Part shown: in pieces, positions 3,471 through 62,834 of the stretch
Layout: every line of letters starts with the position of its first letter
Numbering within the stretch: the stretch's first letter is position 1
Assembly: GCF_019654955.1 (NCBI RefSeq)
Contig: NZ_BPEV01000024.1
Location: 1 to 64,000, forward strand
Reading direction: 5' to 3'
DNA length: 64,000 nucleotides
Source: Shewanella sp. KT0246
GTDB taxonomy: Bacteria > Pseudomonadota > Gammaproteobacteria > Enterobacterales > Shewanellaceae
The notes under the pieces: model-generated
The model's input: the letters and a program-made list of their open reading frames with translations, nothing else
Told to the model about the DNA's origin: nothing
Database searches by the model: none
Translations under genes and position numbers: made by a program

Positions 3471-3481
3471 TGTCTTGCTCC

Positions 3482-5080: not shown

Positions 5081-7012
<1,932 letters not shown>

Positions 7013-7105
7013 GAAATACCCTTTAACCTTTTTAAATTAATGGCAAATTATACAGACAATACAGATATGAACAAATACTGATATACATTCAGCTAAATGA
7101 AAATA

Positions 7106-7669
7106 TTAAAGCGGACGCTTATATTTACAAGATTTTTGAGGACATTCTAAACGGCTACCAGCAGCACCTTTTCGTTCAACCAAAATGCCGAAGTCACATT
7201 CAGGACAGATCTCGTTATGTGGCGGGTAGTTCACTAAATATTTGCACTTAGGGTAACTGCTGCAAGCAAAAAAAGTTTTACCATAACGGCTAGTACGCGA
7301 CTCAAGGTGGCCCTTTTTACAATGTGGGCAGGTTATCTCTTCCGCTTCTGCATCATGATCATGTTTTTCGATATGAGAGCAAGCTGGATAATTAGTGCAG
7401 CCAATAAAAATCCCAAATCGACCAGACTTTACAGCGAGCTCATTACCACATTCCGGGCATTCAGAACCTTCAATAACTTGTGTCTCTATTGACTCGTGTT
7501 GCACTAGCGGTCGGGTAAAATCACAAGTCGGATAATTATTACAACCAACAAAGCCACCATGTTTGCTATTTTTAACCGACAATTCGCAGCCACACTTAGG
7601 GCAGAGCTCAAACTCTTTTTCTAAAGCATGCTCGTGAGCGCTAAATAACTGCTGATCAATTTTAGACAT
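7106..7669 (-). CDS. yrdD: Topoisomerase-type zinc-ribbon protein YrdD
   Basis: A 187-residue cysteine-rich protein with four successive zinc ribbons (CPKCG, CPECG, CPHCK and CPEC pairs, each followed by GCNNYPTC-like or equivalent Cys pairs). This matches the C-terminal zinc fingers of topoisomerase I and E. coli YrdD. It probably binds single-stranded nucleic acid; its exact role is unknown. I chose the ATG at 7669 (MSKIDQQLF), preceded by GAGAG, over an upstream in-frame start at 7741 whose extra 24 residues do not look conserved. A terminator separates it from smg, so it likely has its own promoter. Confidence 0.88.
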   Translation of the reverse strand: MSKIDQQLFSAHEHALEKEFELCPKCGCELSVKNSKHGGFVGCNNYPTCDFTRPLVQHESIETQVIEGSECPECGNELAVKSGRFGIFIGCTNYPACSHIEKHDHDAEAEEITCPHCKKGHLESRTSRYGKTFFACSSYPKCKYLVNYPPHNEICPECDFGILVERKGAAGSRLECPQKSCKYKRPL

Positions 7670-19729: not shown

Positions 19730-24070
<4,341 letters not shown>

Positions 24071-24080
24071 TCAGCAGTAA

Positions 24081-25262
<1,182 letters not shown>

Positions 25263-25280
25263 AATTTAAATATAAATAAA

Positions 25281-25315
25281 AAGCCGTATCACATCTCGTG
25301 ATACGGCTTTTTTTG
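25281..25315. terminator. Rho-independent terminator after fadA
   Basis: AAGCCGTATCAC / GTGATACGGCTT, a perfect 12-bp stem with a 5-base loop, followed by a T run. A-rich DNA on the other side lets it serve the convergent lipoprotein gene as well. Confidence 0.85.
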
Positions 25316-25326
25316 TAATATCAATA

Positions 25327-26148
25327 TTAGTAACGCTTAATAGCTTTTAACTCACGAATATCTGCTTCAAAACTTTGAATTTCTTCCGCTGAAACATACT
25401 TTTTTAATTGTTTCATAGAGCCTTGATAAAACTTAGTCATTGCATCGGCATAAGCCTTTCCAACATTATCGACTAAAACATCTGGCTTGCTAGCATGCTT
25501 CATAGCCCCACCTATAGCCCCCGCGATAATACCATTACCACCAGCTTTCGTTTCCCATTGAGTTATGTATTCCTCAGAGATATTTAACTTTGTTAAGTCT
25601 ACTCTTTTTTGCGACATAACTTGACCAGTTAATGGTTCAATAAACTTTATGATAAATGATCCATCAATGCTTATCGTGCCAGTTTCTTGTGCATAAGAAG
25701 AAAAAGACTTGGTATTAACATTTGCTTTACCGACTTTTATATCGAACTGAGGGACAATAGCTAAATAACTATTCTTCTTGTCACCATAGGTTATCTCATC
25801 AAAAGTTTCATACGGACCAGAATAGGTGAAACCTTTACGTGTGATTAGAGTTTCAACACCATTTTGGAATGCACTTCTTACCTTTTCATTATATTGACCA
25901 CGAATATTCACAAAATCATTAGAACGAGGACTTGATTGTACTATTCCAAATGGACTTTGAGTTGTAGTACGCTGCTCATAGGCAGTAAATGCGCCCCCAG
26001 GCTTAACTATTGCAATTTTCTTATCGACAGATTCTTGTTGTGCACCAAAATCAAAATTTGTATCTACGACTCCAGATTCCTTTTTTACTGGAATTGCAGA
26101 GCAAGCAGTAAGTGATAATACCGCTAGAGTTAAAACTAATTTTTTCAT
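25327..26148 (-). CDS. Putative lipoprotein, HpaA-like
   Basis: A 273-residue lipoprotein: signal sequence MKKLVLTLAVLSLTAC with lipobox cysteine 16. The central segment ALQNGVETLI-like helix followed by RKGFTYSGPYETFDEITYGDKK and LAIVPQFDIKV resembles the neuraminyllactose-binding haemagglutinin (HpaA) family. I recall this only by pattern and hold it loosely. A Gly-rich stretch (GGNGIIAGAIGGAMKH) lies near residue 205. It is convergent with fadA and monocistronic. Function unknown. Confidence 0.75.
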   Translation of the reverse strand: MKKLVLTLAVLSLTACSAIPVKKESGVVDTNFDFGAQQESVDKKIAIVKPGGAFTAYEQRTTTQSPFGIVQSSPRSNDFVNIRGQYNEKVRSAFQNGVETLITRKGFTYSGPYETFDEITYGDKKNSYLAIVPQFDIKVGKANVNTKSFSSYAQETGTISIDGSFIIKFIEPLTGQVMSQKRVDLTKLNISEEYITQWETKAGGNGIIAGAIGGAMKHASKPDVLVDNVGKAYADAMTKFYQGSMKQLKKYVSAEEIQSFEADIRELKAIKRY

Positions 26149-26536
26149 GAAATATATTCCTTTATTTTAAAATAACAAGCAGATGACATATTACATCACA
26201 ACCATTAACACTTATAGGCGAGCATTATATTTAACACATAAAATTCATACACTTATGACACACCATAAAGTGTAAAACTCTATATATTTATCGAGTTTGA
26301 TTAATATATCCAAAAAATCACGAATGAATAAAATTAAATCCCGTATCACCCACCATTAAGTGATAGCAAACAAAAACGAAACAATTTGTATCAATAGCTA
26401 AAAAGCATGTTTCACGTGGAACATGCTGTCTTAGTTCACGAAATACTAATAAAGCCTAAGATAGCCACTTGCAACACTCATTAAGCAGAGTAAAATTAGC
26501 GCAATTAATGTCAGTCAGTCGTATATAAGAGTTGGT
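26149..26536. other. AT-rich intergenic region with a parS site
   Basis: This is 388 bases without a gene, lying between the divergent lipoprotein gene and tusA. It is very AT-rich, with many short A/T tracts, and contains the parS-like palindrome at 26408-26423. I see no small ORF with a ribosome site and no clear sigma-70 promoter that I can defend. Confidence 0.6.
26408..26423. promoter_or_regulatory. parS-like ParB-binding site 1
   Basis: TGTTTCACGTGGAACA matches the bacterial chromosomal parS consensus (TGTTTCACGTGAAACA) at 15 of 16 positions. The symmetry extends outward to AGCATG...CATGCT (26404-26427). ParB is encoded at 61941-62834 in this window. Confidence 0.85.
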
Positions 26537-26782
26537 ATGAGCGAAATTTTTTCTACAGCAGAGCATCACCTAGATGCACTTGGTTTGCGTTGTCCAGAAC
26601 CTGTAATGATGATCCGTAAAACAGTCCGGAAAATGGCTGAAGGTGAAACCTTGTTGATCACTGCTGACGACCCTGCAACTACCAGAGATATCCCAAGTTT
26701 TTGTGAATTTATGGATCACACACTGATTGCAAGTGACACTGAACAAACGCCATATAAATATATGATCAAAAAAGGACTTTAA
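26537..26782 (+). CDS. tusA: Sulfurtransferase TusA
   Basis: An 81-residue sulfur carrier that passes persulfide sulfur from IscS to the TusBCD relay for 2-thiouridine in tRNA. The signature [17 protein letters not shown] holds the reactive Cys19. The length equals E. coli TusA. The MOSC-domain gene follows 2 bp later on the same strand, so the two are likely co-transcribed. Confidence 0.95.
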
Positions 26783-26784
26783 TC

Positions 26785-27225
26785 ATGTCGACACTCAAAG
26801 CTATTGCTTACAAAACCGCAAAAAAAGGCCAAATGAATCCAGTATTTTGCGCCAACGTAAGCCTGCTCAAAGGTGTTGAAAATGATGTATTTGGTCGTCC
26901 AGGTAAGCGTCAAGTCACTGTGATGTCATTAGAACAATGGCAAACAGCTTGTCAGGAAATTAAAGCTGATTTAGATTGGCTAACTCGCCGCGCTAATATT
27001 TTAATAGATAACTATCAATTTAGCGTTGCAGATGTAGGTAAACACATTTCTATTGGTAATGATGTGACCTTACTTATCACTGGTGAAACAGATCCTTGCG
27101 CCAAGATGGAAATGGCTCATTCTGGATTAGAGAAAGCGCTACAACCATACTGGCGTGGTGGCGTAACCTGTAAAGTTGTCAGTGAAGGCTTAATTCAGGT
27201 TGATGATAAAGTAACGATTACCTAG
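26785..27225 (+). CDS. MOSC domain-containing protein
   Basis: A 146-residue protein consisting of a single small MOSC domain. Visible segments are GRPGKRQVTVMSLEQW, RRANILID, ISIGNDVTLLITGETDPCAKMEMA and WRGGVTCKVVSEG. MOSC domains bind molybdenum cofactor or carry sulfur, and a conserved cysteine (in DPCAKM) is retained. Linkage to tusA suggests a sulfur-handling role, though that is inference. A short hairpin (27231-27252) follows. Confidence 0.85.
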   Translation: MSTLKAIAYKTAKKGQMNPVFCANVSLLKGVENDVFGRPGKRQVTVMSLEQWQTACQEIKADLDWLTRRANILIDNYQFSVADVGKHISIGNDVTLLITGETDPCAKMEMAHSGLEKALQPYWRGGVTCKVVSEGLIQVDDKVTIT

Positions 27226-27230
27226 CCTAG

Positions 27231-27252
27231 GATGCCTCTTTGAAGAGGCATA
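27231..27252 (+). terminator. Hairpin after the tusA-MOSC operon
   Basis: ATGCCTCTT / AAGAGGCAT, a 9-bp stem with a TG loop, right after the MOSC stop codon. It is followed by an AT-rich but not T-only tail, so terminator strength is moderate. Confidence 0.5.
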
Positions 27253-27612
27253 TAAATCTACCCCATTTTTATGCTGCAACTTATTACAAAATATAGATCG
27301 TAAGTACTCCATTCTAGAGCAATAATATTTCTTATAAATTACACTTCAGAAGTAACATAGACACATCGCCTAAAAAGGCTGCTTATCTTGGCAGTACTTA
27401 ACAAGTTTTTTTGTTACTTGCCAAATATAAAACTTTGCCCAAACGAAACCAAGTAACTGAATCTTCTAAAGTCGGCTTTTTGATTTACCCCACCTATGAC
27501 TGTCATCATTTGAAACAGAATAAATGTTTAGTTATTGCCAAATATGTGCGATAAATATCATCAGTTTTTTAACTATCAAACAACACTCAATTGATAAAAG
27601 TGTAACTCTACC

Positions 27613-27631
27613 TATAACGATAATCATAATA
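27613..27631 (+). promoter_or_regulatory. Fur-box-like sequence
   Basis: TATAACGATAATCATAATA matches the 19-bp Fur consensus (GATAATGATAATCATTATC) at 15 positions. It lies 12 bp upstream of the start codon of the large amidohydrolase gene. AT-rich DNA makes chance matches common, so support is modest. Confidence 0.4.
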
Positions 27632-27642
27632 ACGGACTGTGC

Positions 27643-30600
27643 ATGTTTACCTCAAAAATAAAACCACTCTATACCGCGATGGCGCTGAGTTTAGCCAGTG
27701 CTTCGCTTGCTGTTAACGCCACAGAAGAAACTGAAAAATGGCAAGTTAACGCTCCTGCAAACGCACCTTTAGAAAAACTACAGATTGATGTTACCGAAGG
27801 CACGTGGATGAATATCAGTGTTTCTCCTGACGGGAAAACCATTGTGTTTGATTTACTAGGTGACATATACCAAATGCCAATCAGTGGCGGGGAAGCAAAA
27901 AAGCTAGCTTCTGGAATTGCTTGGCAAATGCAACCTGTCTACAGCCCAGATGGAAAGCAAATAGCGTTCACATCTGATGAAGACGGCGGCGATAATATTT
28001 GGGTAATGAATGCTGATGGTAGCAATCAACGTGCAGTAACCTCTGAAACATTCCGTTTATTAAACAGCCCCGCATGGAGCCCTGACTCACAATACTTGGT
28101 TGCACGTAAACACTTTACTGCAAGCCGAAGCTTAGGTGCTGGTGAAGTTTGGATGTATCACGTAGCTGGTGGTGAAGGTGTTAAATTAACTGAACGCCCT
28201 AATGATCAAAAAGATTTAGGTGAGCCAGCTTATTCGCCTGATGGCCGATATATCTACTTCAGCCAAGATGCTACACCGGGTAAAACATTCCACTACTCAA
28301 AAGATTCGGTTAAAGGCATTTATAAAATTAAGCGCTACGATACTCAAACCGGTGATATTGAAGTATTAATTGAAGGCACTGGTGGTGCAATTCGCCCAAC
28401 GCCAAGTCCAGATGGAACTAAACTCGCTTACATCAAGCGCGATGGTTTCCAATCAACACTGTATTTACTGGACTTAAAGTCAGGTAAACATACTAAACTT
28501 TACGGTGACCTTGACCGCGACATGCAAGAAACATGGGCTATTCACGGCGTTTACCCAACCATGTCATGGACACAAGACAATGAAGAGATTGTTTTCTGGG
28601 CCAAAGGTAAAATAAACAAACTAAACGTTGAGGACCAAGAAGTTGAGAATATTCCTTTCTCCGTCAAAACAGAACTGGATGTCCAACCTTCTGTACGCTT
28701 TACTCAAAACCTTGACCAAGACGAGTTTGATGTAAAAATGCTGCGTATGGCGCAAGTATCACCTAATGGCGAAAAGGTAGTATTTGAAGCATTAGGTAAA
28801 CTTTGGATCCGTGACATTGAAGATGGTAAACAAAAACGTTTAACTCGTTTAGATGACGATATTAATGAGCTTTTCCCACAATGGTCTCGCGATGGGAAAA
28901 ATATTGTATTTACAACTTGGAATGATCAAGACCAAGGAACTGTCAGCATTGTTAGTGCTAAAGGCGGACGCAGTAAAGAATTGACCAGCGAGCCGGGTAA
29001 ATATGTAGAGCCAACCTTTTCTCCTGATGGCAAAGTTGTTGTATACCGTAAAGCTAAAGGCGGATACGTGACACCTCGAACTTGGTCGCAAGAGCCTGGT
29101 TTGTATAAAGTTGATATAAAGAAAAAGAAAAACATCAAAATTACAGCTAGTGGCTACCAACCTCAGTTCGGTGCAGATTCAAAACGTGTTTTCTTTATGG
29201 ATTATGGTGAGACACCTGAACTATCGTCAATTAGCTTAGACGGCTTCGAAAAACGCACCCATTACACCAGTGAACATGCAACAGAGTTTCGTGTATCGCC
29301 TAACGGTGAACATTTAGCTTTCTCTGAACGTTTCCGTGTTTACGTTACTCCATTTGCTAAGCACGGTGAAACGGTTCGTATAAGCCCTAAAGCAACCAAC
29401 CTTCCTGTAACTCAATTAAGTGTCCGTGCTGGCGAGAGCATAAGTTGGAATAATAAGAGCAATGAACTTTATTGGACTCTTGGGCCTGACTTATATCAAG
29501 CCGCTGTTGATACTCAATATGCTAAGACTGAAGATGAAATAAAACCAACAGTCACTGCTATTGGTTTTAAAGAAAAGGCAGATGTTCCACGTGGAACAAT
29601 CGCCTTTGTTGGCGGTAAAGTTATTACCATGGAAAATGATCAAGTCATTGAAAATGGTGTAGTCATCGTTACTGACAATAAGATTGTTAGTGTTGGTGAT
29701 GCTAGCGTAACCATACCGAAAGGTGCACAGGTTATCGATATTAAAGGTAAAACTTTGATGCCTGGTTTATTCGATGCTCACGCTCATGGTGGTCAAGCTG
29801 ACGATGAAATCATACCTCAACAAAACTGGCAGTTATACTCTGGTCTATCGTTAGGCGTTACAGCAATTCATGATCCATCAAATGATACGACTGAAATCTT
29901 TGCAGCATCTGAGCAGCAAAAGGCAGGCAATATTGTCGGCCCACGTATATTCTCAACGGGTACCATTCTATATGGTGCAAATGCTCCAGGATATACGTCT
30001 CATGTCGACTCGTTAGATGATGCTAAATTTCACTTAGAGCGATTAAAGAAAGTCGGTGCTTTTAGTGTGAAGAGTTATAACCAACCACGTCGTAACCAAC
30101 GTCAACAAGTCATTCAAGCTGCACGTGAATTAGAAATGATGGTTGTGCCTGAAGGCGGAAGCTTACTACAACATAACTTATCAATGATTGCTGATGGTCA
30201 TACAACTATCGAGCATTCACTTCCTGCTGGTTCAATCTACAGTGATATTAAGCAGTTTTGGAGTCAAACAGAAGTTGCCTATACACCTACTCTAGTTGTT
30301 GCCTACGGTGGTATTTCAGGTGAACACTATTGGTATGATAAGACCGATGTTTGGGCTCACCCTCGCCTAAGCATGTATGTACCAAGTGATATATTGAATG
30401 CTCGTTCGATGCGCAGAACTAAAGCACCAGATGCGCATTACAATCATTTCAATGTTGCTCGTGTAGCCAATGAACTTAATGACATTGGAATCCATCCAAA
30501 TATCGGTGCTCATGGTCAACGTGAAGGCTTAGCCGCACATTGGGAAATGTGGATGTTTGCCCAAGGTGGTATGAGCAATATGGACGTACTTAAAACAGCT

Positions 30601-30831
30601 ACGATTAATCCAGCTAAAACCTTTGGTATGGACCATCAAATAGGTTCAATTAAAGCAGGTAAATTGGCTGACTTAATTGTCATTGATGGCAATCCATTAG
30701 AAGATATTCGCACTACGGATAAAGTCACTTACACTATGGCTAACGGTAAATTATATAACGCTGAAACCATGGATCAGTTAAATGGTGAAGAGATAAAACG
30801 TAAGCCATTTTTCTTTGAAACTGTTAAATAG
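27643..30831 (+). CDS. Exported TolB-like beta-propeller / amidohydrolase fusion protein
   Basis: A 1062-residue exported protein (signal peptide ending near residue 26). Residues about 45-620 are PD40/TolB-type beta-propeller repeats, with many copies of SPDGK-like motifs (VSPDGKTIVFD, YSPDGKQIAFTS, FSPDGKVVVY). Residues about 640-1062 are an amidohydrolase domain with metal motif DAHAHGG (His713, His715). It ends KAGKLADLIVIDGNPLEDI. Relatives act on peptides or cyclic amides, but the substrate is unknown. A parS-like site lies inside the gene at 29583-29598, and a Fur-box-like site precedes it. Confidence 0.9.
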   Translation: MFTSKIKPLYTAMALSLASASLAVNATEETEKWQVNAPANAPLEKLQIDVTEGTWMNISVSPDGKTIVFDLLGDIYQMPISGGEAKKLASGIAWQMQPVYSPDGKQIAFTSDEDGGDNIWVMNADGSNQRAVTSETFRLLNSPAWSPDSQYLVARKHFTASRSLGAGEVWMYHVAGGEGVKLTERPNDQKDLGEPAYSPDGRYIYFSQDATPGKTFHYSKDSVKGIYKIKRYDTQTGDIEVLIEGTGGAIRPTPSPDGTKLAYIKRDGFQSTLYLLDLKSGKHTKLYGDLDRDMQETWAIHGVYPTMSWTQDNEEIVFWAKGKINKLNVEDQEVENIPFSVKTELDVQPSVRFTQNLDQDEFDVKMLRMAQVSPNGEKVVFEALGKLWIRDIEDGKQKRLTRLDDDINELFPQWSRDGKNIVFTTWNDQDQGTVSIVSAKGGRSKELTSEPGKYVEPTFSPDGKVVVYRKAKGGYVTPRTWSQEPGLYKVDIKKKKNIKITASGYQPQFGADSKRVFFMDYGETPELSSISLDGFEKRTHYTSEHATEFRVSPNGEHLAFSERFRVYVTPFAKHGETVRISPKATNLPVTQLSVRAGESISWNNKSNELYWTLGPDLYQAAVDTQYAKTEDEIKPTVTAIGFKEKADVPRGTIAFVGGKVITMENDQVIENGVVIVTDNKIVSVGDASVTIPKGAQVIDIKGKTLMPGLFDAHAHGGQADDEIIPQQNWQLYSGLSLGVTAIHDPSNDTTEIFAASEQQKAGNIVGPRIFSTGTILYGANAPGYTSHVDSLDDAKFHLERLKKVGAFSVKSYNQPRRNQRQQVIQAARELEMMVVPEGGSLLQHNLSMIADGHTTIEHSLPAGSIYSDIKQFWSQTEVAYTPTLVVAYGGISGEHYWYDKTDVWAHPRLSMYVPSDILNARSMRRTKAPDAHYNHFNVARVANELNDIGIHPNIGAHGQREGLAAHWEMWMFAQGGMSNMDVLKTATINPAKTFGMDHQIGSIKAGKLADLIVIDGNPLEDIRTTDKVTYTMANGKLYNAETMDQLNGEEIKRKPFFFETVK
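29583..29598. promoter_or_regulatory. parS-like ParB-binding site 2 (inside a gene)
   Basis: TGTTCCACGTGGAACA is a perfect 16-bp palindrome matching the Pseudomonas-type parS core GTTCCACGTGGAAC. It lies within the coding sequence of the TolB-like/amidohydrolase fusion, at the linker between its two domains (codons for V-P-R-G-T). Confidence 0.85.
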
Positions 30832-30853
30832 CTTAACCTGTAGCTATTAATTT

Positions 30854-30888
30854 AAAAGGGATGTTCCACGTGGAACATCCCTTTTTTT
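30854..30888. terminator. Palindromic bidirectional terminator containing parS
   Basis: A perfect 32-bp palindrome (AAAAGGGATGTTCCAC and its complement, 30854-30885) followed by further T residues. It sits between two convergent genes (the large amidohydrolase and tag), where it should work as a terminator for both. Its centre is the parS-like sequence at 30862-30877. Confidence 0.75.
30862..30877. promoter_or_regulatory. parS-like ParB-binding site 3 (inside the terminator)
   Basis: TGTTCCACGTGGAACA is identical to site 2 and lies only 1.28 kb from it. It is the core of a perfect palindromic terminator between convergent genes. Confidence 0.88.
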
Positions 30889-30912
30889 ATTACTAGTGAC
30901 ATATTTTAAATA

Positions 30913-31473
30913 TCACTTTCCATAGCGAAAACAATCTGTTGTATGATCGTTAACCATACCTACCGCTTGCATAAATGCATAACAAATCGTTGGTCCAACA
31001 AAGTTAAAGCCGAGCTTTTTAAGTGCTTTTGACATCGCTTCTGATTCAACAGTTTGTGCTGGAACTTCTGACATTGAACTGAAATGATTAACCTTAGGCT
31101 TACCACCAACGAAATCCCATAAGAAAGTAGAGAAGTCATTGCCTGCATCTACAAAGGCCAAATATGCTTTAGCATTTATAATTATAGAATTGACCTTCAA
31201 ACGATTTCTAACAATCCCTGGATTTAACAGCAGTTGTTCTACTTTCTCATCGTCAAAAGTAGCAATAATCTTAGGGTCAAAATTGGCGAACAAAGCTTGG
31301 TAATTATGCTGCTTTTTTAAAATGGTAATCCATGACAGTCCCGCTTGCTGTCCATCAAGGCATAACTTCTCAAATAGCTCGATAGAATCATAAACTGGCC
31401 TTCCCCAAACATTATCGTGATAATCGATATAAAGAGAGTCATTACTTAACCAAGCACAACGTTTCTGATCCAT
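30913..31473 (-). CDS. tag: DNA-3-methyladenine glycosylase I
   Basis: Tag excises 3-methyladenine from alkylated DNA. It is a 186-residue helix-hairpin-helix-fold protein with the Zn ligands Cys6, His19 and the C-terminal NDHTTDC pair. The sequence LCLDGQQAGLSWITILKK contains the base-recognition position; E. coli has Glu38 there and this protein has Asp40, a conservative change. I placed the start at the ATG at 31473; the reading frame also has a TTG six codons earlier. It is convergent with the large amidohydrolase gene and has no operon partner. Confidence 0.93.
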   Translation of the reverse strand: MDQKRCAWLSNDSLYIDYHDNVWGRPVYDSIELFEKLCLDGQQAGLSWITILKKQHNYQALFANFDPKIIATFDDEKVEQLLLNPGIVRNRLKVNSIIINAKAYLAFVDAGNDFSTFLWDFVGGKPKVNHFSSMSEVPAQTVESEAMSKALKKLGFNFVGPTICYAFMQAVGMVNDHTTDCFRYGK

Positions 31474-31593
31474 TTGTATTGCCCATTTCAATTTTTAGTC
31501 TCTACGTTAAAAAATAACCTACATCTGTATTAATCTACAAGGTATAATCAAAACCATTTTCTATTTTTAGCCTCAACCAGTAGATAAGCGGAC

Positions 31594-32499
31594 ATGACGA
31601 CGAAACACGACGTAAAGACATTCCAGGGCTTCATTATGACCCTGCAGGAATACTGGGCGCAGCAAGGTTGCGCAATCGTTCAACCATTAGACATGGAAGT
31701 GGGTGCAGGCACTTTCCACCCGATGACATTTTTACGTTCATTAGGCCCAGAGCCAATGAGCAGTGCTTACGTGCAACCATGTCGTCGACCTACAGATGGT
31801 CGCTATGGTGAAAACCCTAACCGACTTCAACATTACTACCAATTCCAAGTAGTGCTTAAGCCTTCTCCAAGTAACATCCAAGAGCTATATCTTGGCTCAT
31901 TAGAAGCGCTTGGTGTTGATATGGGCGTTCATGACGTTCGTTTTGTTGAAGACAACTGGGAATCGCCAACACTTGGTGCTTGGGGTTTAGGTTGGGAAGT
32001 CTGGTTAAATGGCATGGAAGTGTCGCAATTTACCTACTTCCAACAAGTTGGTGGCTTAGAATGTAAGCCAGTAACTGGTGAAATCACTTACGGTTTAGAG
32101 CGTCTTGCGATGTATATCCAAGAAGTCGACAGCGTATACGACCTTGTCTGGACTGACGGCCCTATGGGTAAAGTCATGTACGGTGACATTTTCCATCAAA
32201 ATGAAGTTGAGCAATCAACGTATAACTTCGAACATGCTGATGTTGAAGTGCTATTTAAGCAATTTGATGACTGTGAAAAAGCCTGTCAAAAACTGTTAGC
32301 GCTTGAAAAACCGCTACCATTACCAGCTTATGAGCAAGTAATGAAAGCCTCGCACGCATTTAACTTACTCGATGCCCGCCATGCTATTTCAGTTACTGAA
32401 CGCCAACGTTATATCTTACGTGTTCGTACTATGGCAAAAGGTGTTGCAGAATCTTATTACCAAGCACGTGAAGCGCTTGGTTTCCCAATGTGTAAGTAG
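31594..32499 (+). CDS. glyQ: Glycyl-tRNA synthetase alpha subunit
   Basis: The 301-residue catalytic class II core of the tetrameric bacterial glycyl-tRNA synthetase. It begins with the typical [18 protein letters not shown] and contains [20 protein letters not shown] and [23 protein letters not shown] at 31543-31548 may be its -10. It is followed 9 bp later by glyS. Confidence 0.98.
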
Positions 32500-32508
32500 A
32501 GGTAGAAT

Positions 32509-34578
32509 ATGAACGTTGAAAACTTACTCATTGAAGTGGGTACTGAAGAATTACCGCCAAAAGCATTACGTAAACTGGCAGAATCATTTCTTGCTAACTT
32601 TACTGAAGAGCTAACTAAAGCTGAGTTAGCTTATGAAAATGCAACTTGGTATGCGGCGCCTCGCCGTTTAGCAATTAGTGTTGAACAACTTGCTGTTGCG
32701 CAAGCTGACAAAGTGGTTGAGAAACGCGGACCTGCAGTTGCTCAAGCATTTGACGCTGAAGGAAACCCAACTAAAGCCGCTATGGGCTGGGCTCGTGGTA
32801 ACGGAATCACTGTTGAACAAGCTGACCGTCTAAAAACAGACAAGGGCGAATGGTTATTACACCAAGCTAAAGTGGTTGGTGTTGAAACCAAGTCTTTAAT
32901 TGCTGCAATGGCACAAAAGTCTTTAGATAAATTACCTATCCCTAAACCAATGCGTTGGGGTAGTAATACAACACAATTTATCCGCCCAGTTCATACTGTC
33001 ACTATGCTTTTAGGTGATGAACTCGTTGCTGGTGAATTGTTAGGTATCGAATCAGCTCGCACTATTCGTGGTCATCGTTTCATGGGTGTTGATACCTTTG
33101 AATTAGATCATGCAGACAACTACTTAACTGAACTTGAAACGCAGGGTAAAGTATTAGCTGATTACCAACGTCGTAAAGACATCATTAAAGAAAATGCAGA
33201 AATAGCTGCCAAAGAAATTGGCGGCGTTGCAGAGCTTGAAGATGACTTACTTGAAGAAGTAACCGCATTAGTTGAATGGCCTGTTGTGTTAACAGCAAGC
33301 TTTGAAGAAAAGTTCTTAGATGTTCCTGCTGAAGCTTTGGTTTACACCATGAAAGGCGATCAAAAATACTTCCCAGTATTTGATAAAGCAGGCCAACTAT
33401 TACCAAATTTTATCTTTGTGACTAACATTGAGTCTAAAGATCCTCAGCAGATTATTTCAGGTAACGAAAAAGTGGTTCGCCCTCGTCTTGCCGATGCTGA
33501 ATTCTTCTTTGAAACTGATAAAAAACAGTCATTAGAAACTCGTCTAGCCAGCTTAGAGTCTGTTGTTTTCCAAAAACAATTAGGCACGATTAAAGCTCGC
33601 GTTGAGCGTATCTCTGCAATGGCTGGTTTCATTGCCACCAGCATTAACGCTAATAGCGAAGAAGCCGCTCGTGCAGGCTTACTGTCTAAATCTGACCTAA
33701 TGACCAACATGGTGATGGAGTTTACTGATCTTCAAGGCACTATGGGCATGCATTACGCACGCTTAGATGGTGAAACTGAAGCTGTTGCAGTTGCCTTAGC
33801 TGAACAATACAAGCCTAAGTTCTCTGGCGATACTGTGCCAACAGCACCGATTTCTATCTGTGTCGCGTTAGCTGAAAAACTCGATACTTTAGTGGGTATT
33901 TTTGGTATTGGGCAAGCACCTAAGGGCGCAGCAGATCCATTCGCACTTCGTCGTGCAGCTATCGGTATTTTACGTCTTTGTTTAGAAAACAACTTACCGC
34001 TAGATTTAGTTGATTTAATTGCTAAAGCAAAAGAATTACACGGTGAAAACCTAACTAACGAAAACGTATCTGAACAGGTTCTTGAGTTCTTTATGGGCCG
34101 TTTCCGTTCTTGGTATCAAGATCAAGGTGTAGGCGTTGACGTTATTCTCGCTGTACTAGCACGTAAACCAACTGCACCTGCTGATTTTGAAAGCCGCATT
34201 AAAGCTGTGGCTCACTTTAGAACGTTAGAGCAAGCATCAGCTCTTGCTGCTGCTAATAAGCGTGTATCTAACATCTTGGCTAAAGTTGAAGGCGAAATCC
34301 CATCTACTATTGATTCTGGGCTTCTCGTTGAAAGTGCTGAGAAAGCATTAGCTGAAAAGTTAGCTGAACTGCAACCACAACTTGCACCATTATTTGCTGC
34401 AGCAAACTATCAACAAGCATTAGATCTTCTTGCTGGTTTACGTGAAAGCGTTGATACCTTCTTCGAAGATGTAATGGTTATGGCAGATGATGCAGCACTT
34501 AAGAATAACCGTTTAGCACTTCTTAATAGTCTACGTGAGCAATTCTTACATGCCGCTGATATTTCATTATTACAATAA
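32509..34578 (+). CDS. glyS: Glycyl-tRNA synthetase beta subunit
   Basis: The 689-residue beta subunit, which binds tRNA-Gly and is required for aminoacylation. It starts [16 protein letters not shown] and contains [26 protein letters not shown] and [20 protein letters not shown]. Its C-terminal part is the anticodon-binding, DALR-like region. Length equals E. coli GlyS (689). It forms an operon with glyQ and ends at a clear terminator. Confidence 0.98.
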
Positions 34579-34600
34579 TGATATCTGAGTCATCACAACA

Positions 34601-34627
34601 AAAGCGCGCCTTATGGCGCGTTTTTTT
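34601..34627 (+). terminator. Rho-independent terminator after glyS
   Basis: CGCGCC / GGCGCG stem with a 4-base loop, followed by seven T residues. The A residues on the other side also suit the convergent HDOD gene. Confidence 0.85.
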
Positions 34628-34674
34628 ATGGCTAACATCAGTGTAGATTAAATGAACATCCAACTAAAGTTACA

Positions 34675-35757
34675 TTATAGAGTGATTAACTTTTGATGCA
34701 GTAACTCAAACTCATCATGGCTAATAGCGACTTGAGAAAGCAACTGCGACTGCGCCTGCTCTGTCAGCTTATCCACCTGTTTAAGCATCGAACATTCACT
34801 AATGATATTGGCACGCCATATTATCAAAGCCATGCTATCTGTTGGTTTGTGATGACAGTTAGCCAATTGGGTTAACGGCACTTCAAATTCAGCGGGTAAT
34901 TGCCAATATTTAACAAGCAATGCGCTGAGTCCTAATGACTTGGTCGTCATGACTTGCTTAAACAATATCGAACTAGGCTGCTCACCAGGTTCAGCTTGTC
35001 GAAACGCTTCAATCATCATTTTAAAAATAGCAATTTTGCCAACGTCATGTAGTAAGCCTAAAAAGAATGCGGTATCACCATCATATTCTGCAAGTTCATT
35101 AGCTAAAAAGGCTACCTGCATAGAGTGGCGCCAAATTTCAGCGCCAAAGCGTCTGAAATAAATAGGCTTAATGTTAATCATTTCCTTCATTAAGCTTGTT
35201 CGTACAAATAGTTGTAATTGGCTTAAACCAATCTGCACAACAGCTTGTTGCAAGCTGGTGATTTGCTTATCAGAGCGTTTGAAAGCACTCGAATTACACA
35301 ACTTCAATACTTCAATACTCAATACCGGATCTTGCTCTATCCGCAGAAGCAAAGACTTAGTATCGACATCTGATTGAGCTATTTGTCTGTCTACTTCTGA
35401 TAATCGACTAGGTAGTTTAAGTACCTTTTCAGCAATAGCCTGCGGCGCTGTAAAAGCCTGTTCAATCTTAGTCAGCACACTGCGCTCTAAGTCATTTGCC
35501 ATTGCACCTGTATCTTGGCTACTTGATGGAAATAACAAACTATAAAACAGTGCACTAGCATCAAGAACACTTGTCGGCACGGCAACGGAGACTTGCTCAG
35601 TAGTTTGTTGATGACTAGCTTGCTTTGGCCTAGACGCAACTTGTGAATTAGCTGGGCGTTTTAATAACACAGATTGTTGGCTGTCTAATGATTTAGCAGC
35701 ATTGACCTCTTGGGTCGGACGAACATTAAACAACTTATAAAATAGCTTTTTAAACAT
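34675..35757 (-). CDS. HDOD domain protein
   Basis: A 360-residue cytoplasmic protein. The N-terminal 100 residues are low-complexity and Gln/Ser-rich. The HDOD domain covers about 110-320 (LPSRLSEVDRQIA, SVEVLKLCNSS-like, TSLQQAVVQIGLSQLQ, FFLGLLHDVGKIAIFKMM). HDOD proteins are HD-phosphodiesterase relatives used in signalling, often without catalysis; here the HD pair in LLHDVGK is retained. It lies upstream of gyrB in transcription sense but separated from it by gyrB's own terminator. Its target is unknown. Confidence 0.85.
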   Translation of the reverse strand: MFKKLFYKLFNVRPTQEVNAAKSLDSQQSVLLKRPANSQVASRPKQASHQQTTEQVSVAVPTSVLDASALFYSLLFPSSSQDTGAMANDLERSVLTKIEQAFTAPQAIAEKVLKLPSRLSEVDRQIAQSDVDTKSLLLRIEQDPVLSIEVLKLCNSSAFKRSDKQITSLQQAVVQIGLSQLQLFVRTSLMKEMINIKPIYFRRFGAEIWRHSMQVAFLANELAEYDGDTAFFLGLLHDVGKIAIFKMMIEAFRQAEPGEQPSSILFKQVMTTKSLGLSALLVKYWQLPAEFEVPLTQLANCHHKPTDSMALIIWRANIISECSMLKQVDKLTEQAQSQLLSQVAISHDEFELLHQKLITL

Positions 35758-35821
35758 GACAAAATACCACTTAGACAGGTAACAACATTGGAAAAAGCTG
35801 GTTTAAAAGGGTTAAAACTAA

Positions 35822-35847
35822 AAATGGGTGCCACTTGGCACCCATTT
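35822..35847 (-). terminator. Terminator after gyrB
   Basis: AAATGGGTGCC / GGCACCCATTT, a perfect 11-bp stem with a 4-base loop, immediately past the gyrB stop. The minus strand continues with T residues. Confidence 0.85.
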
Positions 35848-35864
35848 AATTTAACAGAGATGCA

Positions 35865-38297
<2,433 letters not shown>

Positions 38298-39380
38298 TTA
38301 TTCAACTACCGTGACTTGCCCATGTTCCACATGAAACATTTTACTTGGCGGGCTTGCCAGCGAATCGACTATTGCAACAGGATCAATCGCTGTGACAAAA
38401 ATTTGTGCACCGGTTTCGGTTAACTGTTTTAGCAATAGTTGCCTATGTTGTGCATCCAACTCAGATGGAAGATCATCCACAAGGTAAATACTATGCTTGT
38501 TTTGTTGTTCTTGAAGCAATTTGCCTTGTGCAATACGCAGTGCACAGACTAATAATTTTAACTGTCCTCGGGATAATGCATCCTGCACAGGAAGGTTGCC
38601 AACGCGTAATCGTAAATCCGCTTTATGTGGTCCACTGCCTGTATTTCCCGATGATAAATCTCTGTGATATTGAGTTTCGAGTAACTCTGCAAAATCCGTT
38701 TTGCTATCCCAGCCGCGAGTAAAGGAAACTTTAATATCAACTCGTGGTAAAAACTCTTTGATTATACCCTTAAGTAGCTCATTTAACGAGTCTACATATT
38801 GATTTCGTATCGAAGTAACTTGTTCAGCATACCGTACCAATTCCTTATCCCAAAATTGAATTGTGGCATAAGAAGAACCATCTCTAAGAAGTTGATTTCT
38901 TTGCTTTAAAATTCTTCTTGTATTCACCCATGCTTGATAAAAATTAACGTCCGCATGAAAAGCGCCCCAGTCGATAAATTGTCGGCGGGCTTTTGGGCCT
39001 TCAAATAGCAAAGAAAAACTTTCCGGTGTGATAACTTGAATGGGTAATGTTTCAGCCAAAACCGACAAACGCTTCACTTTGTCGCCATTTAATTTGACAT
39101 CAATATCGCCATTTCGAAAACGTCTTAAACCTAATTTAGCTTCGCCCGAAGCCATTTCTAGTTGAGCAAATAAAGTTAAACTATCTTGCTCAATATTAAT
39201 CACTCTTTGAGATAAATGACTGCGAAAAGAACGCCCCATTCCCAAAAAATATATAGCTTCTAATATACTGGTTTTTCCGCTGCCATTTTCACCATAAATC
39301 AGATTTAAACCTGACTCTGGTTGTAATGACGCCGAAAGGATATTGCGAAACTGGGCGATATTAAGACGGGTTAAACTCAT
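38298..39380 (-). CDS. recF: DNA replication and repair protein RecF
   Basis: A 360-residue SMC-like ATPase that works with RecO and RecR in gap repair. It has Walker A GENGSGKT (residues 30-37), the ABC signature-like [17 protein letters not shown] and Walker [12 protein letters not shown]. The C-terminal residues MFHVEHGQ are encoded by a parS-like sequence. It follows dnaN after a terminator-like hairpin and precedes gyrB. Confidence 0.97.
38323..38338. promoter_or_regulatory. parS-like ParB-binding site 4 (in the 3' end of recF)
   Basis: TGTTCCACATGAAACA matches the parS consensus at 14 of 16 positions. On the minus strand it encodes the recF C-terminal residues FHVEH, about 8 codons before the stop. 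Confidence 0.75.
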
Positions 39381-39423
39381 GAGTGGTAATTTCTCAAACC
39401 TATCAACAAAGAAGTAAAACTAA

Positions 39424-39450
39424 AAAAGGTGCCTTAATGTAGCACCTTTT
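39424..39450 (-). terminator. Hairpin/terminator between dnaN and recF
   Basis: AAAAGGTGC / GCACCTTTT with a 9-base loop. On the minus strand it is followed by T residues. It lies in the 112-bp gap between dnaN and recF, so transcription from dnaA-dnaN may be attenuated before recF-gyrB. Confidence 0.6.
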
Positions 39451-39492
39451 GGGATAAAAACGTCGCAGTAATCTATTTAGATCATGTCAAAA

Positions 39493-40593
39493 TTATAAAC
39501 GCATAGGCATCACGACATACATTGAATCTTCTTCGGCGTGGTTTTCTATCAACGCACTCGAGTTTCCATCAATCAGAGTGATTCTGACGTCGTCACTGGC
39601 TAAGTTATTTAATACATCGAGTAGATAACTCACATTAAAGCCAATTTCTAAGTTTTCAGAATTGTATTCAACGTCGATAATTTCTTCTGCTTCTTCTTGC
39701 TCAGGGTTGTTTGCTGTAATGCGCAATAATCCTGGCTCAAGCTGAATACGAACCCCACGGAACTTCTCATTCGATAAAATTGAAGCGCGAGTTAATGCTT
39801 GTTTTAAATGATTACGACTCGCGACTACAATCTTATTACCGCCTTTAGGTAACACGCGACGATAATCAGGAAAACGTCCATCAACAAGCTTACTGGTAAA
39901 TACGGCATTATCGGTGGTGGCACGAATAGCACTATCACCAATAGCAATATTAATCTCTTTGTCTTCGCTCTCTAATAAGCGCGACATTTCAACCACACCT
40001 TTACGCGGCACAATCACTTGCTTTTCTGGTAATTCGATACCAATATCACGATGACTGAGTGCTAAACGGTGTCCATCTGTCGCAATCGCTTTTAACGAGT
40101 TACCCGCAGTTTCAAAAAGTAAGCCATTTAAATAGTATCGAACATCTTGGTTCGCCATTGAGAACTGGGTCGAATCAATAATCGACTTTAATGTGCCCTG
40201 CTTTAAACTGAATTCAATCTCTGCTTGGAAAGCTTCAACATTGGGGTAATCAGATGCTGGCAAAGTGGCTAAAGAAAAACGGCTACGGCCTGAGCGTAAT
40301 AACCATTTGTTTTCTTGTTGTTCAATTTTGATTTCGACTTGTTCAGGAAGAGACTTGACGATATCTAAAAGCTTTTTAGCGGGAACAGTCGTGCTACCGA
40401 CTTCAATGTCACCTTGAATAGGCGCTTGGCCTACAAGCTCCACTTCTAAATCCGTACCTGTCAGCTTAAGTGAGTACTCACTAACTTCCACGAGTAGATT
40501 AGATAAAATCGGCAAGTTATGACGTCTTTCTACTGCGCCACACACTAATTGAAGTGGTTTTAATAGGGCATCCCTATCAATTGAAAATTTCAT
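39493..40593 (-). CDS. dnaN: DNA polymerase III beta sliding clamp
   Basis: The 366-residue sliding clamp, the same length as E. coli DnaN. It has MKFSIDRDALLKPLQLV at the start, LPILSNLLVEV, SRFSLATLPASDYPN and the C-terminal YVVMPMRL. I chose the ATG at 40593; an in-frame ATG three codons earlier would add MRR only. It lies 19 bp downstream of dnaA on the minus strand. Confidence 0.98.
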   Translation of the reverse strand: MKFSIDRDALLKPLQLVCGAVERRHNLPILSNLLVEVSEYSLKLTGTDLEVELVGQAPIQGDIEVGSTTVPAKKLLDIVKSLPEQVEIKIEQQENKWLLRSGRSRFSLATLPASDYPNVEAFQAEIEFSLKQGTLKSIIDSTQFSMANQDVRYYLNGLLFETAGNSLKAIATDGHRLALSHRDIGIELPEKQVIVPRKGVVEMSRLLESEDKEINIAIGDSAIRATTDNAVFTSKLVDGRFPDYRRVLPKGGNKIVVASRNHLKQALTRASILSNEKFRGVRIQLEPGLLRITANNPEQEEAEEIIDVEYNSENLEIGFNVSYLLDVLNNLASDDVRITLIDGNSSALIENHAEEDSMYVVMPMRL

Positions 40594-40612
40594 TCGTCTC
40601 AATTTCCTGATA

Positions 40613-42001
40613 TTAAGAAGATAATGTACGTATCAAGTTAGCATAATCTTCTTTAATGTCATGACTTTCTTCACGCAATTGGGCAATTTTTCTGCATGCG
40701 TGTAATACGGTAGTATGATCACGACCTCCAAAGGCATCCCCAATTTCAGGCAAGCTTTGGTTTGTGAGTTCTTTTGATAATGCCATCGCTACTTGACGAG
40801 GTCTCGCAACACTACGAGAACGACGCTTAGATAGCATGTCAGCCATTTTAATTTTGTAGTACTCAGCCACGGTCTTTTGAATATTATCAATCGTGACCAG
40901 TTTTTCTTGTAGCGCTAATAAATCACGCAATGCTTCACGAACAAAATCAATCGTAATCGGTCGACCAGTAAAGTTAGCATTGGCAATAACACGGTTTAAT
41001 GCGCCTTCTAATTCACGCACATTTGAACGTAAACGTTTGGCAATAAAGAACGCCACTTCATCTGGAAGGTTAATGCCACTCTCTTGTGCTTTACGCATCA
41101 AGATCGCCACACGAGTTTCCAGTTCAGGCGGCTCAATAGCAACCGTAAGACCCCAACCAAAACGAGATTTTAAACGATCTTCTACCCCATCGATTTCTTT
41201 AGGGTATTTATCAGATGTCAAAATGATCTGATGATTACCTTCTAATAGTGCATTGAAGGTATGAAAGAATTCTTCTTGTGAACGATCTTTATTGGCAAAG
41301 AATTGAATGTCATCAATAAAGAGTGCATCAACACTACGGTAATAACGTTTGAAATCTTCAATCGCATTATTCTGTAATGCTTTAACCATATCCTGAACAA
41401 AACGCTCAGAGTGCATATAAACCACTTTAGCATTGGGATTATTTTTAATAATCCCATTGCCTACTGCATGCAATAAATGGGTTTTACCTAAACCGGTGCC
41501 GCCATATAAAAATAATGGGTTGTATGCACCACCTGGGTTTTCTGCCACTTGCAGCGCTGCAGCTTTACCTAGTTGGTTTGATTTACCTTCAACGAAATTA
41601 TCAAACTGATAAGTAGGATTAATATTACTGCGATGATTAGCATGCTCAACAGGCTCAGCTTGAGTATTAAATGCTGTACTGACACGCGGCTTAGCTTGTG
41701 TACTTTGCGGCTGTCTAACTTCTGCTTTTACTGGTGCAGGAGTTCTGACTGCTGACGGGCGGCTACCAATATCAAAACGCAGCTTAGGGGCATTTCCACC
41801 TAACTGTTCAGTAAAAAATTGATTGATGATATTGATGTACTTATCTCGAACCCAATCGAGTACAAAACGATTAGGTGCATAAAGTACCAAAGTATCGCCA
41901 TCCATTTCAGCTTGTAGCGGACGGATCCACATACTGAATTGCTGCGCAGAAAGTTCGTCTTGCAGCCTGTCGATACATTGTTGCCAAAGTGAAACCGCCA
42001 C
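40613..42001 (-). CDS. dnaA: Chromosomal replication initiator protein DnaA
   Basis: A 462-residue initiator. Domain I begins [25 protein letters not shown], and domain II is a variable Pro/Gln linker (residues 80-130). Domain III is an AAA+ ATPase with GGTGLGKT (167-174) and [21 protein letters not shown]. Domain IV ends with the DnaA-box recognition motif [15 protein letters not shown]. The start is GTG. The upstream region carries DnaA boxes and a GATC cluster, so autoregulation and SeqA control are likely. Confidence 0.99.
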
Positions 42002-61142: not shown

Positions 61143-61925
61143 GTGGGTAAAATCATTGCCGTAGCCAACCAAAAAGGTGGCGTAGGAAAAACAACAACTT
61201 GTGTTAATTTAGCAGCCTCGCTTGCGGCCACAAAACGCAAAGTGCTGTTAATCGATCTTGATCCACAGGGTAATGCCACTATGGGGAGTGGTGTTGATAA
61301 ATACGAAGTTGAAAATACCGCTTACGAATTACTTGTCGAAGAAAAATCTTTTGCCGAAATAGTCATTAAAGATACGACGGGCAAATATGATCTGATTGCA
61401 GGAAATGGTGATGTTACCGCAGCTGAAATTAAACTCATGGAGTTTTTCGCCAGAGAAATTAGATTAAAAAATGCATTGGCAGAAGTAAAAGATGATTATG
61501 ATTTTATCTTTATTGATTGCCCGCCATCACTGAACATGCTGACAGTTAATGCCATGTCGGCTGCTGACTCAGTGTTAGTGCCAATGCAATGTGAATACTA
61601 TGCCTTAGAAGGCTTGACAGCATTGATTGATACCATAACTAAGTTAGGCGCTATGGTTAATCCTAACTTGAGCATCGAAGGGATCTTACGAACAATGTAT
61701 GATCCTCGTAATAGATTATCAAATGATGTATCTGATCAATTAAAACAACATTTTGGCGAAAAAGTTTACCGCACAGTGATCCCGCGCAATATTCGATTAG
61801 CTGAAGCGCCAAGTTTTGGGGCTCCTGCAATGTATTACGATAAATCTAGTGCTGGTGCCAAAGCCTATTTAGCTTTAGCGGGTGAAATCATTCGCCGCGC
61901 AGAGCAACAAACAGAATCTAAGTAA
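61143..61925 (+). CDS. parA: Chromosome-partitioning ATPase ParA (Soj)
   Basis: A 260-residue deviant-Walker ATPase with KGGVGKTTTCVN near the N-terminus and LLIDLDPQGNATMGSG. The segment IFIDCPPSLNMLTVNAM carries the switch aspartate. It moves origin-proximal parS-ParB complexes in chromosome segregation. The start is GTG. It is followed by parB 15 bp later. Confidence 0.97.
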   Translation: MGKIIAVANQKGGVGKTTTCVNLAASLAATKRKVLLIDLDPQGNATMGSGVDKYEVENTAYELLVEEKSFAEIVIKDTTGKYDLIAGNGDVTAAEIKLMEFFAREIRLKNALAEVKDDYDFIFIDCPPSLNMLTVNAMSAADSVLVPMQCEYYALEGLTALIDTITKLGAMVNPNLSIEGILRTMYDPRNRLSNDVSDQLKQHFGEKVYRTVIPRNIRLAEAPSFGAPAMYYDKSSAGAKAYLALAGEIIRRAEQQTESK

Positions 61926-61940
61926 GCGTAAGGGAATAAA

Positions 61941-62834
61941 ATGACGTTAAAAAAACGCGGTTTAGGTAAGGGCTTGGATGCTTTGTTAAGTAATAGCAAC
62001 GCTGCGAGCCGAAAAACTGAGCAGACTCAAACAGAAGCTGAAGTAATCCAAGCGCCAAAGGAAGATGGCTTATTGATGCTCGATTTAGATTTACTGCAGT
62101 CAGGTAAGTATCAACCGCGTAAAGACATGTCACCTGAAGCGTTAGAAGAGTTAGCGGAGTCAATTAAATCACAAGGTGTTATTCAACCTATTGTTGTGCG
62201 TAAAATTGATGCCGAAAAATATGAAATTATTGCAGGTGAACGCCGCTGGAGAGCATCGCAAATAGCTCAATTAGACAAAGTCCCATGTATTGTTAAACAG
62301 GTCCCGGACGAGTCAGCAGTTGCCATCGCTTTAATTGAAAATATTCAACGTGAAGACTTAAATGCTATGGAAGAAGCTATAGCATTACAGCGATTACTAG
62401 AAGAATTTGAATTAACACATCAACAAACTGCCGATGCTGTAGGTAAATCTAGAGCAAGTGTTTCTAACTTATTACGTTTAAATAGTTTAAATGAGCCTGT
62501 TAAACGTTTATTAGAATATGGCGATATAGACATGGGTCATGCTCGTGCTTTACTTGCTATTGAAGGTGAAGAGCAAACTAATTTAGCTCGATTGGTCGCT
62601 TCTAAAGAAATGACAGTTCGCGAAACTGAACGATTAGTGAATAAAGCCCTAAATCCGACTAAAGAAGCCGAAAAACCAACTAAAGATCATGATGTAACCC
62701 GCTTAGAGCAACAGTTAATTGAAAAGTTAGGTGCTAAAGTGGCGATAAATCATGGCAGTAAAGGTAAAGGTAAAATTGTAATAAACTACCAAGATCTTGC
62801 TGAATTGGATGGAATACTTAGCAAAATTCACTAA
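61941..62834 (+). CDS. parB: Chromosome-partitioning protein ParB (Spo0J)
   Basis: A 297-residue CTPase/DNA clamp that loads at parS. The N-terminal domain has QYQPRKDMSPEALEELAESI-like start and IIAGERRWRASQIA (GERR box). The helix-turn-helix domain has TADAVGKSRASVSNLLRLN, and the C-terminal dimerisation domain ends IVINYQDLAELDGIL. The cognate sites are the five parS-like palindromes elsewhere in the window. Confidence 0.98.
   Translation: MTLKKRGLGKGLDALLSNSNAASRKTEQTQTEAEVIQAPKEDGLLMLDLDLLQSGKYQPRKDMSPEALEELAESIKSQGVIQPIVVRKIDAEKYEIIAGERRWRASQIAQLDKVPCIVKQVPDESAVAIALIENIQREDLNAMEEAIALQRLLEEFELTHQQTADAVGKSRASVSNLLRLNSLNEPVKRLLEYGDIDMGHARALLAIEGEEQTNLARLVASKEMTVRETERLVNKALNPTKEAEKPTKDHDVTRLEQQLIEKLGAKVAINHGSKGKGKIVINYQDLAELDGILSKIH

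Follow-up and report, generated by a model that had tools for sequence, protein, structure and literature searches.

Genes and sequence features at the amidohydrolase-tag junction

Two convergent genes end close together in the window, that is, in the whole stretch of 64,000 nucleotides of Shewanella sp. KT0246 DNA that was analysed. One encodes a protein with a TolB-like propeller and an amidohydrolase domain, and is termed the amidohydrolase gene below; the other is tag, which encodes DNA-3-methyladenine glycosylase I. Their stops, at 30831 and 30913, face each other across 81 bp. Genes presumed to be gyrB, recF, dnaN and dnaA (names taken from the translations) are at 35865-42001, and these together with parAB in the window mark the origin region; the junction is ∼10 kb from dnaA. 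The assembly comprises 4.85 Mb in 183 contigs, and the exact parS core is found in it three times, at 26408, 29583 and 30862 (Table 1).

The junction displays a perfect 32-bp palindrome, AAAAGGGA-TGTTCCACGTGGAACA-TCCCTTTT, at 30854-30885, and a run of seven T residues (30882-30888) that starts inside the right arm. Both features had been predicted and are confirmed in the sequence. The palindrome is composed of the 16-bp parS core and eight paired bases on each side, with the T run following. There are no mismatches between the core and the 16-bp parS palindrome TGTTYCACGTGRAACA. Core-like sequences with up to three mismatches occur five times in the window against 0.23 expected, and none of 100 shuffles reached five. 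A match to the 16-bp consensus, a position near oriC and a genome that encodes a ParB of the parS-binding family are all as expected of a chromosomal parS.

As RNA, the palindrome is predicted to form a 14-bp hairpin with a 4-nt ACGU loop, the core lying 30 nt past the amidohydrolase stop. The earlier description of an element without a loop holds for the DNA palindrome, which has no spacer, and fails for the RNA hairpin. The 32-mer has a predicted fold of −21.2 kcal/mol, whereas shuffled versions average −6.06 (z −6.9) and none of 200 is as good; a 61-nt segment yields z-scores of −6.6 on the + strand and −7.5 on the − strand. The site is the longest terminator-like hairpin in a scan of 28000-34000 (14 pairs, loop of 4), a scan that by itself is weak because it detects ten such hairpins against 4.9 expected. 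The tracts flanking the stem are TTTTTTTATT on the + side and TTTTAAATT on the − side, and the better U-tract is therefore in the amidohydrolase direction. A stable GC-containing stem-loop is thus situated after a stop codon with a U-rich tract directly after the stem, which is the form of an intrinsic terminator.

An Rfam scan of positions 24000-40000 gave no family at gathering score, and a phage collection searched with the junction gave no match. In a plasmid collection, three records match short stretches of the junction query, on its tag side only.

Table 1. Positions of features in the window and of plausible parS terminators in stretches of the broad bacterial set; L numbers denote individual loci
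Feature	Sequence	Positions	Strand	Remarks
TolB-like propeller + amidohydrolase protein	window	27643..30831	+	PF07676, PF01979; transcript would end at the hairpin
Left arm AAAAGGGA	window	30854..30861		Lower stem; A-tract is the predicted U-tract for the tag direction; fold, covarying arms
parS core TGTTCCACGTGGAACA	window	30862..30877		Exact match; also upper stem and ACGU loop of the predicted hairpin (fold)
Right arm TCCCTTTT	window	30878..30885		Lower stem; fold, covarying arms
T-rich tract TTTTTTTATT	window	30882..30891	+	Predicted U-tract for the amidohydrolase direction; overlaps right arm
tag, DNA-3-methyladenine glycosylase I	window	30913..31491	-	Convergent gene; TIGR00624 above cutoff, PF03352
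ParA-family ATPase	window	61143..61925	+	Best NCBIfam match below its equivalog cutoff
ParB	window	61941..62834	+	TIGR00180; ParB_N, HTH_ParB, ParB_C
Second exact parS	window	29583..29598		Within amidohydrolase coding sequence, without arms
Third parS TGTTTCACGTGGAACA	window	26408..26423		Between a - strand ORF and tusA; 4 extra pairs here, 1 in L034, L036 and L037
Plausible parS terminator	L216, Saprospiraceae	7046-7061		Between convergent ORFs; Bacteroidota-type
Plausible parS terminator	L283, Chitinophaga solisilvae	6119-6134		16 arm pairs, past the end of a - strand ORF; Bacteroidota-type
Plausible parS terminator	L213, Clostridiales	6286-6301		∼30 bp after stop; Clostridia-type
Plausible parS terminator	L272, Anaerovorax odorimutans	7278-7293		∼30 bp after stop; Clostridia-type
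Plausible parS terminator	L252, Clostridia	2007-2022		∼28 bp past gene end
More weakly plausible parS terminator	L286, Lachnospiraceae	6152-6167		Between convergent ORFs; Clostridia-type

Conservation of the core and covariation of the arms

A pattern search detects one to four parS sites in 144 of 146 sampled genomes of the family. The junctions of relatives were located by a search with the tag protein (E up to 1e-40), which matched in 144 of the 146 genomes, the window's own included. The junction was compared in 143 relatives, each oriented to the window and with the amidohydrolase and tag stops located; open reading frame contexts were assigned mechanically (at least 80 aa). The genus corresponds to group g1 with 123 loci, own included, and raw counts are of related genomes that are not independent. 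Among its members are genomes that share identical 100-mers with named Shewanella benthica and S. corallii records, in 49 of 79 and 11 of 79 tested blocks of overlap.

An exact parS is found 23-162 bp (median 64) past the amidohydrolase stop in 112 of the 123 genus genomes, 250 bp having been searched. In 109 of these 112, the parS forms a stem on the amidohydrolase strand that is unbroken over 10 bp or more, G-U pairs included, and that is accompanied by five or more T in eight positions; the same stem and T content are present on the tag strand in 98. The arms were compared at 119 sites, consisting of these 112 together with five from g4 and two from g5. The best 8-nt segment, which may overlap the arm's own T residues, has at least five T at 116 sites on the amidohydrolase strand and at 108 on the tag strand. 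The distance between the two genes varies: of the 111 loci with both stops, 67 have a gap of up to 250 bp, 24 have one of 251-600 bp and 20 have a longer one. Where a co-directional open reading frame lies between them (14 loci), the parS hairpin remains at the amidohydrolase end.

The exact parS is absent past an existing amidohydrolase stop in three genus genomes. The centre of the core is mutated and the hairpin intact in L062 and L098; L058 has a broken core and a mismatch in the hairpin, and a strict hairpin scan gave none. Eight other genus loci have no amidohydrolase gene in the compared stretch, and seven of these do not bear on the test. One such locus, L041, is a contig end, yet displays the parS hairpin; another, L176, rests on a distant tag match. 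At four loci (L157, L158, L151 and L153), parS overlaps the 3′ end of tag or lies within 2 nt of it, and in L151, as well as in L153 by eye with a longer loop, another parS is found directly after a separate terminator-like hairpin.

The arms differ widely in sequence. They include GGGA/TCCC, GGA/TCC, GGG/CCC, GGCA/TGCC, GCA/TGC, GAG/CTC, GGAG/CTCC, GCGGA/TCCGC and GCAGAA/TTCTGC, among others, mostly preceded by A and followed by T. There are 32 different 6 + 6 arms among the 119 sites. Of the 55 distinct 8 + 8 arms, 52-55 form each of pairs 1-5, and for every one of these pairs the observed value exceeds that of all 1000 shuffles; pairing at pair 8 is no better than in shuffles. The original prediction had expected conservation of both the core and the GGGA/TCCC arms. 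The core is kept, as are arm pairing and the A/T tracts, but the arm letters vary; pairing that is kept while the letters change is a stronger form of that prediction.

Changes in the arms were followed on a tree of the amidohydrolase protein only, rooted with g2, that holds 117 of the 119 sites (L144 and L168, with short open reading frames, were dropped). Arm pairs 1-5 undergo 59 changes, of which 45 are compensated double changes, five lead to G-U, six break and three mend a pair, with the proviso that arm indels shift the register and may count as double changes. Control pairs 15-20, paired in 33-41% of sequences, undergo 74-82 changes each, of which 2-6 are compensated, versus 9-16 each for pairs 1-5. 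Wobble events, which distinguish RNA pairing from DNA palindromy weakly here, lean in the expected direction, with ten on the amidohydrolase strand versus five on the tag strand. The mean fold over the 119 sites is −20.6 kcal/mol for the amidohydrolase strand versus −20.3 for the tag strand; the stronger fold is on the amidohydrolase strand at 55 sites and on the tag strand at 62, with two equal. A chance origin of the site is rejected by the fold z-scores, the arm-pairing shuffles and the covariation on the tree.

A centromere site within a putative terminator

Very probably, a parS near oriC has become part of the stem of an intrinsic terminator that lies between the amidohydrolase gene and tag, such that the core would load ParB and the arms would complete the terminator. 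This dual use, put forward in the original prediction, passes the comparative test across relatives. It is strongly supported, at the level of sequence, by the anatomy of the site, its conservation, the covariation of the arms and an ordinary terminator predicted at the same place in g2. As DNA, the 16-bp core would be the ParB loading site. As RNA, it would provide the loop and the upper part of the stem, with the terminator completed by a small number of arm pairs and the A/T tract. Polymerase leaving the amidohydrolase gene would read through parS, the hairpin would form and the polymerase would leave within the T run; the tag transcript would also be served, in most of the species compared. 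Polymerase stopping and ParB loading would both occur at this site. Selection by ParB would fix the letters of the core and selection for termination would fix only the pairing of the arms, and hence the arms would drift in compensated steps.

One short sequence would thus be read two ways, its letters by ParB and its pairing by transcription. With the core frozen and the arms covarying, the two selections can be separated in one alignment. The junction offers a natural system in Shewanella, a genus that can be handled in the laboratory, for asking how a centromere accommodates both ParB loading and the passage of polymerase. The arms can be broken without touching parS, and the loop centre can be changed without breaking the stem. 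A practical aspect is that parS mutants in Shewanella may alter the 3′ ends of genes.

All 14 genomes of the outlying genus g2 have an ordinary terminator predicted at the junction on the amidohydrolase strand, and nine have one on the tag strand; none of the 14 has the exact parS there. In g5 (L154 and L160), the T run of an ordinary terminator ends 2 bp before parS. On the g2-rooted tree, g5 branches first, then L157 with L158, then the remaining genus members with g4. The parS stem of L157 and L158 is shorter, with 4-5 extra pairs, and only its amidohydrolase side has a T run; in the remaining members and g4, parS forms the stem and the arms are mostly longer. The branching order suggests an early position of parS beside the terminator, followed by replacement of the terminator's stem. 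parS would thus appear to have been incorporated into a conserved terminator. Abutment of parS and a separate terminator is seen at 22 of 355 family sites versus none of 123 in part of the broad bacterial set, among the matches listed and with kinship ignored. Among intergenic family parS that are not embedded, 19 of 134 abut a separate terminator versus 95 of 1740 intergenic positions drawn at random from these loci (Fisher p 0.0004, kinship ignored).

The excess of abutting sites is what would be expected if ParB occupancy and termination interact, either with bound ParB acting as a roadblock or modifier or with termination clearing polymerase for loading of the ParB clamp. An effect of ParB on transcription has a parallel in the P. 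aeruginosa passages available, where ParB represses promoters beside the intergenic parS3 and parS4 (PMC5521831). On the other hand, the hairpin is made only once polymerase has crossed parS, and another parS stands in the adjacent coding sequence with no such protection; an interaction of this kind is unlikely. A wider conjecture, slightly less doubtful though still improbable, is that chromosomal centromere sites in Shewanella and its relatives form a working module with termination, in which ParB loading and polymerase stopping affect one another within the same 32 bp, and that parS moves beside and then into terminators more than once among bacteria.

The original prediction had also suggested that the terminator keeps transcription from crossing a ParB nucleation site. 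This part is not taken up, as the polymerase of either gene crosses parS before stopping. The stem of an intrinsic terminator has to be transcribed before it can act, and shielding of parS is therefore unlikely; the element can stop polymerase only just beyond parS. The second parS, in the amidohydrolase coding sequence, is presumably transcribed with that gene.

It is very improbable that the arms are instead selected as DNA, a longer palindrome aiding ParB binding, clamp release or cruciform formation and the likeness to a terminator being secondary. Such selection would account for long perfect arms without T runs, with letters that vary between species and still match, at seven upstream parS sites and in L119 (see below), and it gains from the weakness of the wobble test and from folds that are about equal on both strands. 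However, all 92 coding parS sites of these genomes lack any extension, and most upstream sites have little or none. A and T tracts flank the junction arms, an ordinary terminator without parS occupies this position in all 14 g2 genomes, and extended arms with T runs are rare in other bacteria. Least probable by a small step is a terminator only, with the parS-like core a fossil or chance resemblance that loads no ParB: the exact core is lost in L058, L062 and L098, two of which keep an intact hairpin, but arm letters vary freely while the core, sought with a pattern that admits just the usual C/T variants, is exact in 112 genus genomes and decayed in three, and ParB is encoded in the window in a family where nearly all genomes carry parS.

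Known systems and parS sites elsewhere

The distribution of parS has reportedly been surveyed by Livny and colleagues. The chromosomal parABS system is represented in the window by an exact 16-bp consensus, with one to four sites in nearly all family genomes, by nearness to dnaA and by parAB. No description of parS acting as a terminator was found in the literature searched, which consisted of titles, starts of abstracts and passages, including PMC4368675, PMC10954446, PMC12779278 and PMC7022226. In P. aeruginosa, parS sites are coding or intergenic and have promoter effects, and a terminator role is absent from the passages available.

The nearest precedent, in the portions of the literature available, is that of the Neisserial DNA uptake sequences (DUS), which occur as inverted repeats in Rho-independent terminators (PMC2397512). 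As at the junction, the stem of an intrinsic terminator located past genes is made from DNA that is recognised for a different purpose. The DUS stem differs in that two closely spaced inverted copies form it, the purpose is DNA uptake and the sequence is abundant in the genome. Here one already palindromic parS alone forms the upper stem at one fixed junction, and the core is present three times in the 4.85 Mb, whereas DUS- or USS-type terminators are characterised by genome-wide abundance.

The stability module of plasmid RA3 has a Rho-independent terminator after orf11, the gene that parS follows (PMC7414963). According to the passages available, this resembles the abutting arrangement of g5 in that a tested terminator lies at the end of the module and parS comes after the module's last gene, but terminator and parS are presented as separate features with no shared stem (PMC7414963). 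The junction also resembles bidirectional intrinsic terminators between convergent genes in its GC-containing stem, 4-nt loop, A-tract before and T-tract after, and g2 has the ordinary form of such a terminator at this junction. It differs from ordinary bidirectional terminators in that the upper stem and loop would be fixed by a second function, leaving the lower stem alone free to vary.

Similar arrangements appear to recur rarely at other parS sites. A strict A4/T4 flanking pattern recovers 90 of the 119 known sites and also matches 13 of the 92 coding sites, so that flanks were judged instead by extension and T count (at least four extra pairs and at least five T in eight on either strand, the loose criteria). 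Over 369 Gammaproteobacteria, the strict pattern is found in the window's own genome only, with some parS in 237 of the 369. In a sample of the order, it is found in two of 119 genomes and misses several hairpin-bearing genus members; one of three matches in the second genome is a coding site. By the loose criteria, such flanks are present at three of 113 upstream parS sites of the family, the window's own among them, and at none of 53 sites in the first 30 of the 237 class genomes with parS.

In the broad bacterial set (117 stretches, two Shewanella stretches excluded), 13 of 178 sites have flanks of this kind among the matches listed, seven of 122 in the first 80 stretches and six of 56 in the other 37; four sites too near a stretch end were skipped. 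Six of the 13, from the matches listed, are plausible parS terminators by gene context (Table 1). The remaining seven (L208, two in L209, L244, L266, L276 and L289) are AT-rich or weak and were set aside. The six plausible cases indicate that the arrangement is not confined to Shewanella; the covariation analysis covered the Shewanella junction.

Arm extension is not always explained by intrinsic termination, because seven upstream sites (L042, L043, L048, L053, L062, L067 and L104) have at least seven perfect arm pairs and no T run, and L119 has a long palindrome adjoining tag, also with no T run. The seven sites lie 13-27 bp after an open reading frame of 155-156 aa and ∼4.6-5.3 kb before the tag stop, and their arms differ between species yet match. 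These arms and those of L119 may be favoured by another type of 3′ end, by transcript protection or by a role as DNA.

The coding parS of the amidohydrolase gene is kept in exact form in 87 of 123 genus genomes. Read as VPRGT, it is the C/G variant in every one of the 92 loci where it occurs, unlike the other two sites, which vary. The longest open frame (at least 100 codons) over parS in 30 other gammaproteobacterial loci is the FHVE frame at 31 of 53 sites and another frame at seven; in 80 loci of the broad set, among the matches listed, the respective counts are 31 and 59 of 123. A decayed parS with two mismatches, at 38323-38338 of the window near the 3′ end of the presumed recF, encodes FHVEH as an intact parS would in that frame, and it may represent a fossil parS kept as protein. 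Of interest also is a Streptomyces parS (L182, 3539-3554) inside a GGGGCGGGG/CCCCGCCCC palindrome without a T run. That palindrome lies within the last bases of a predicted + strand open reading frame (2548-3570), which faces an open reading frame on the − strand (3631-4170).
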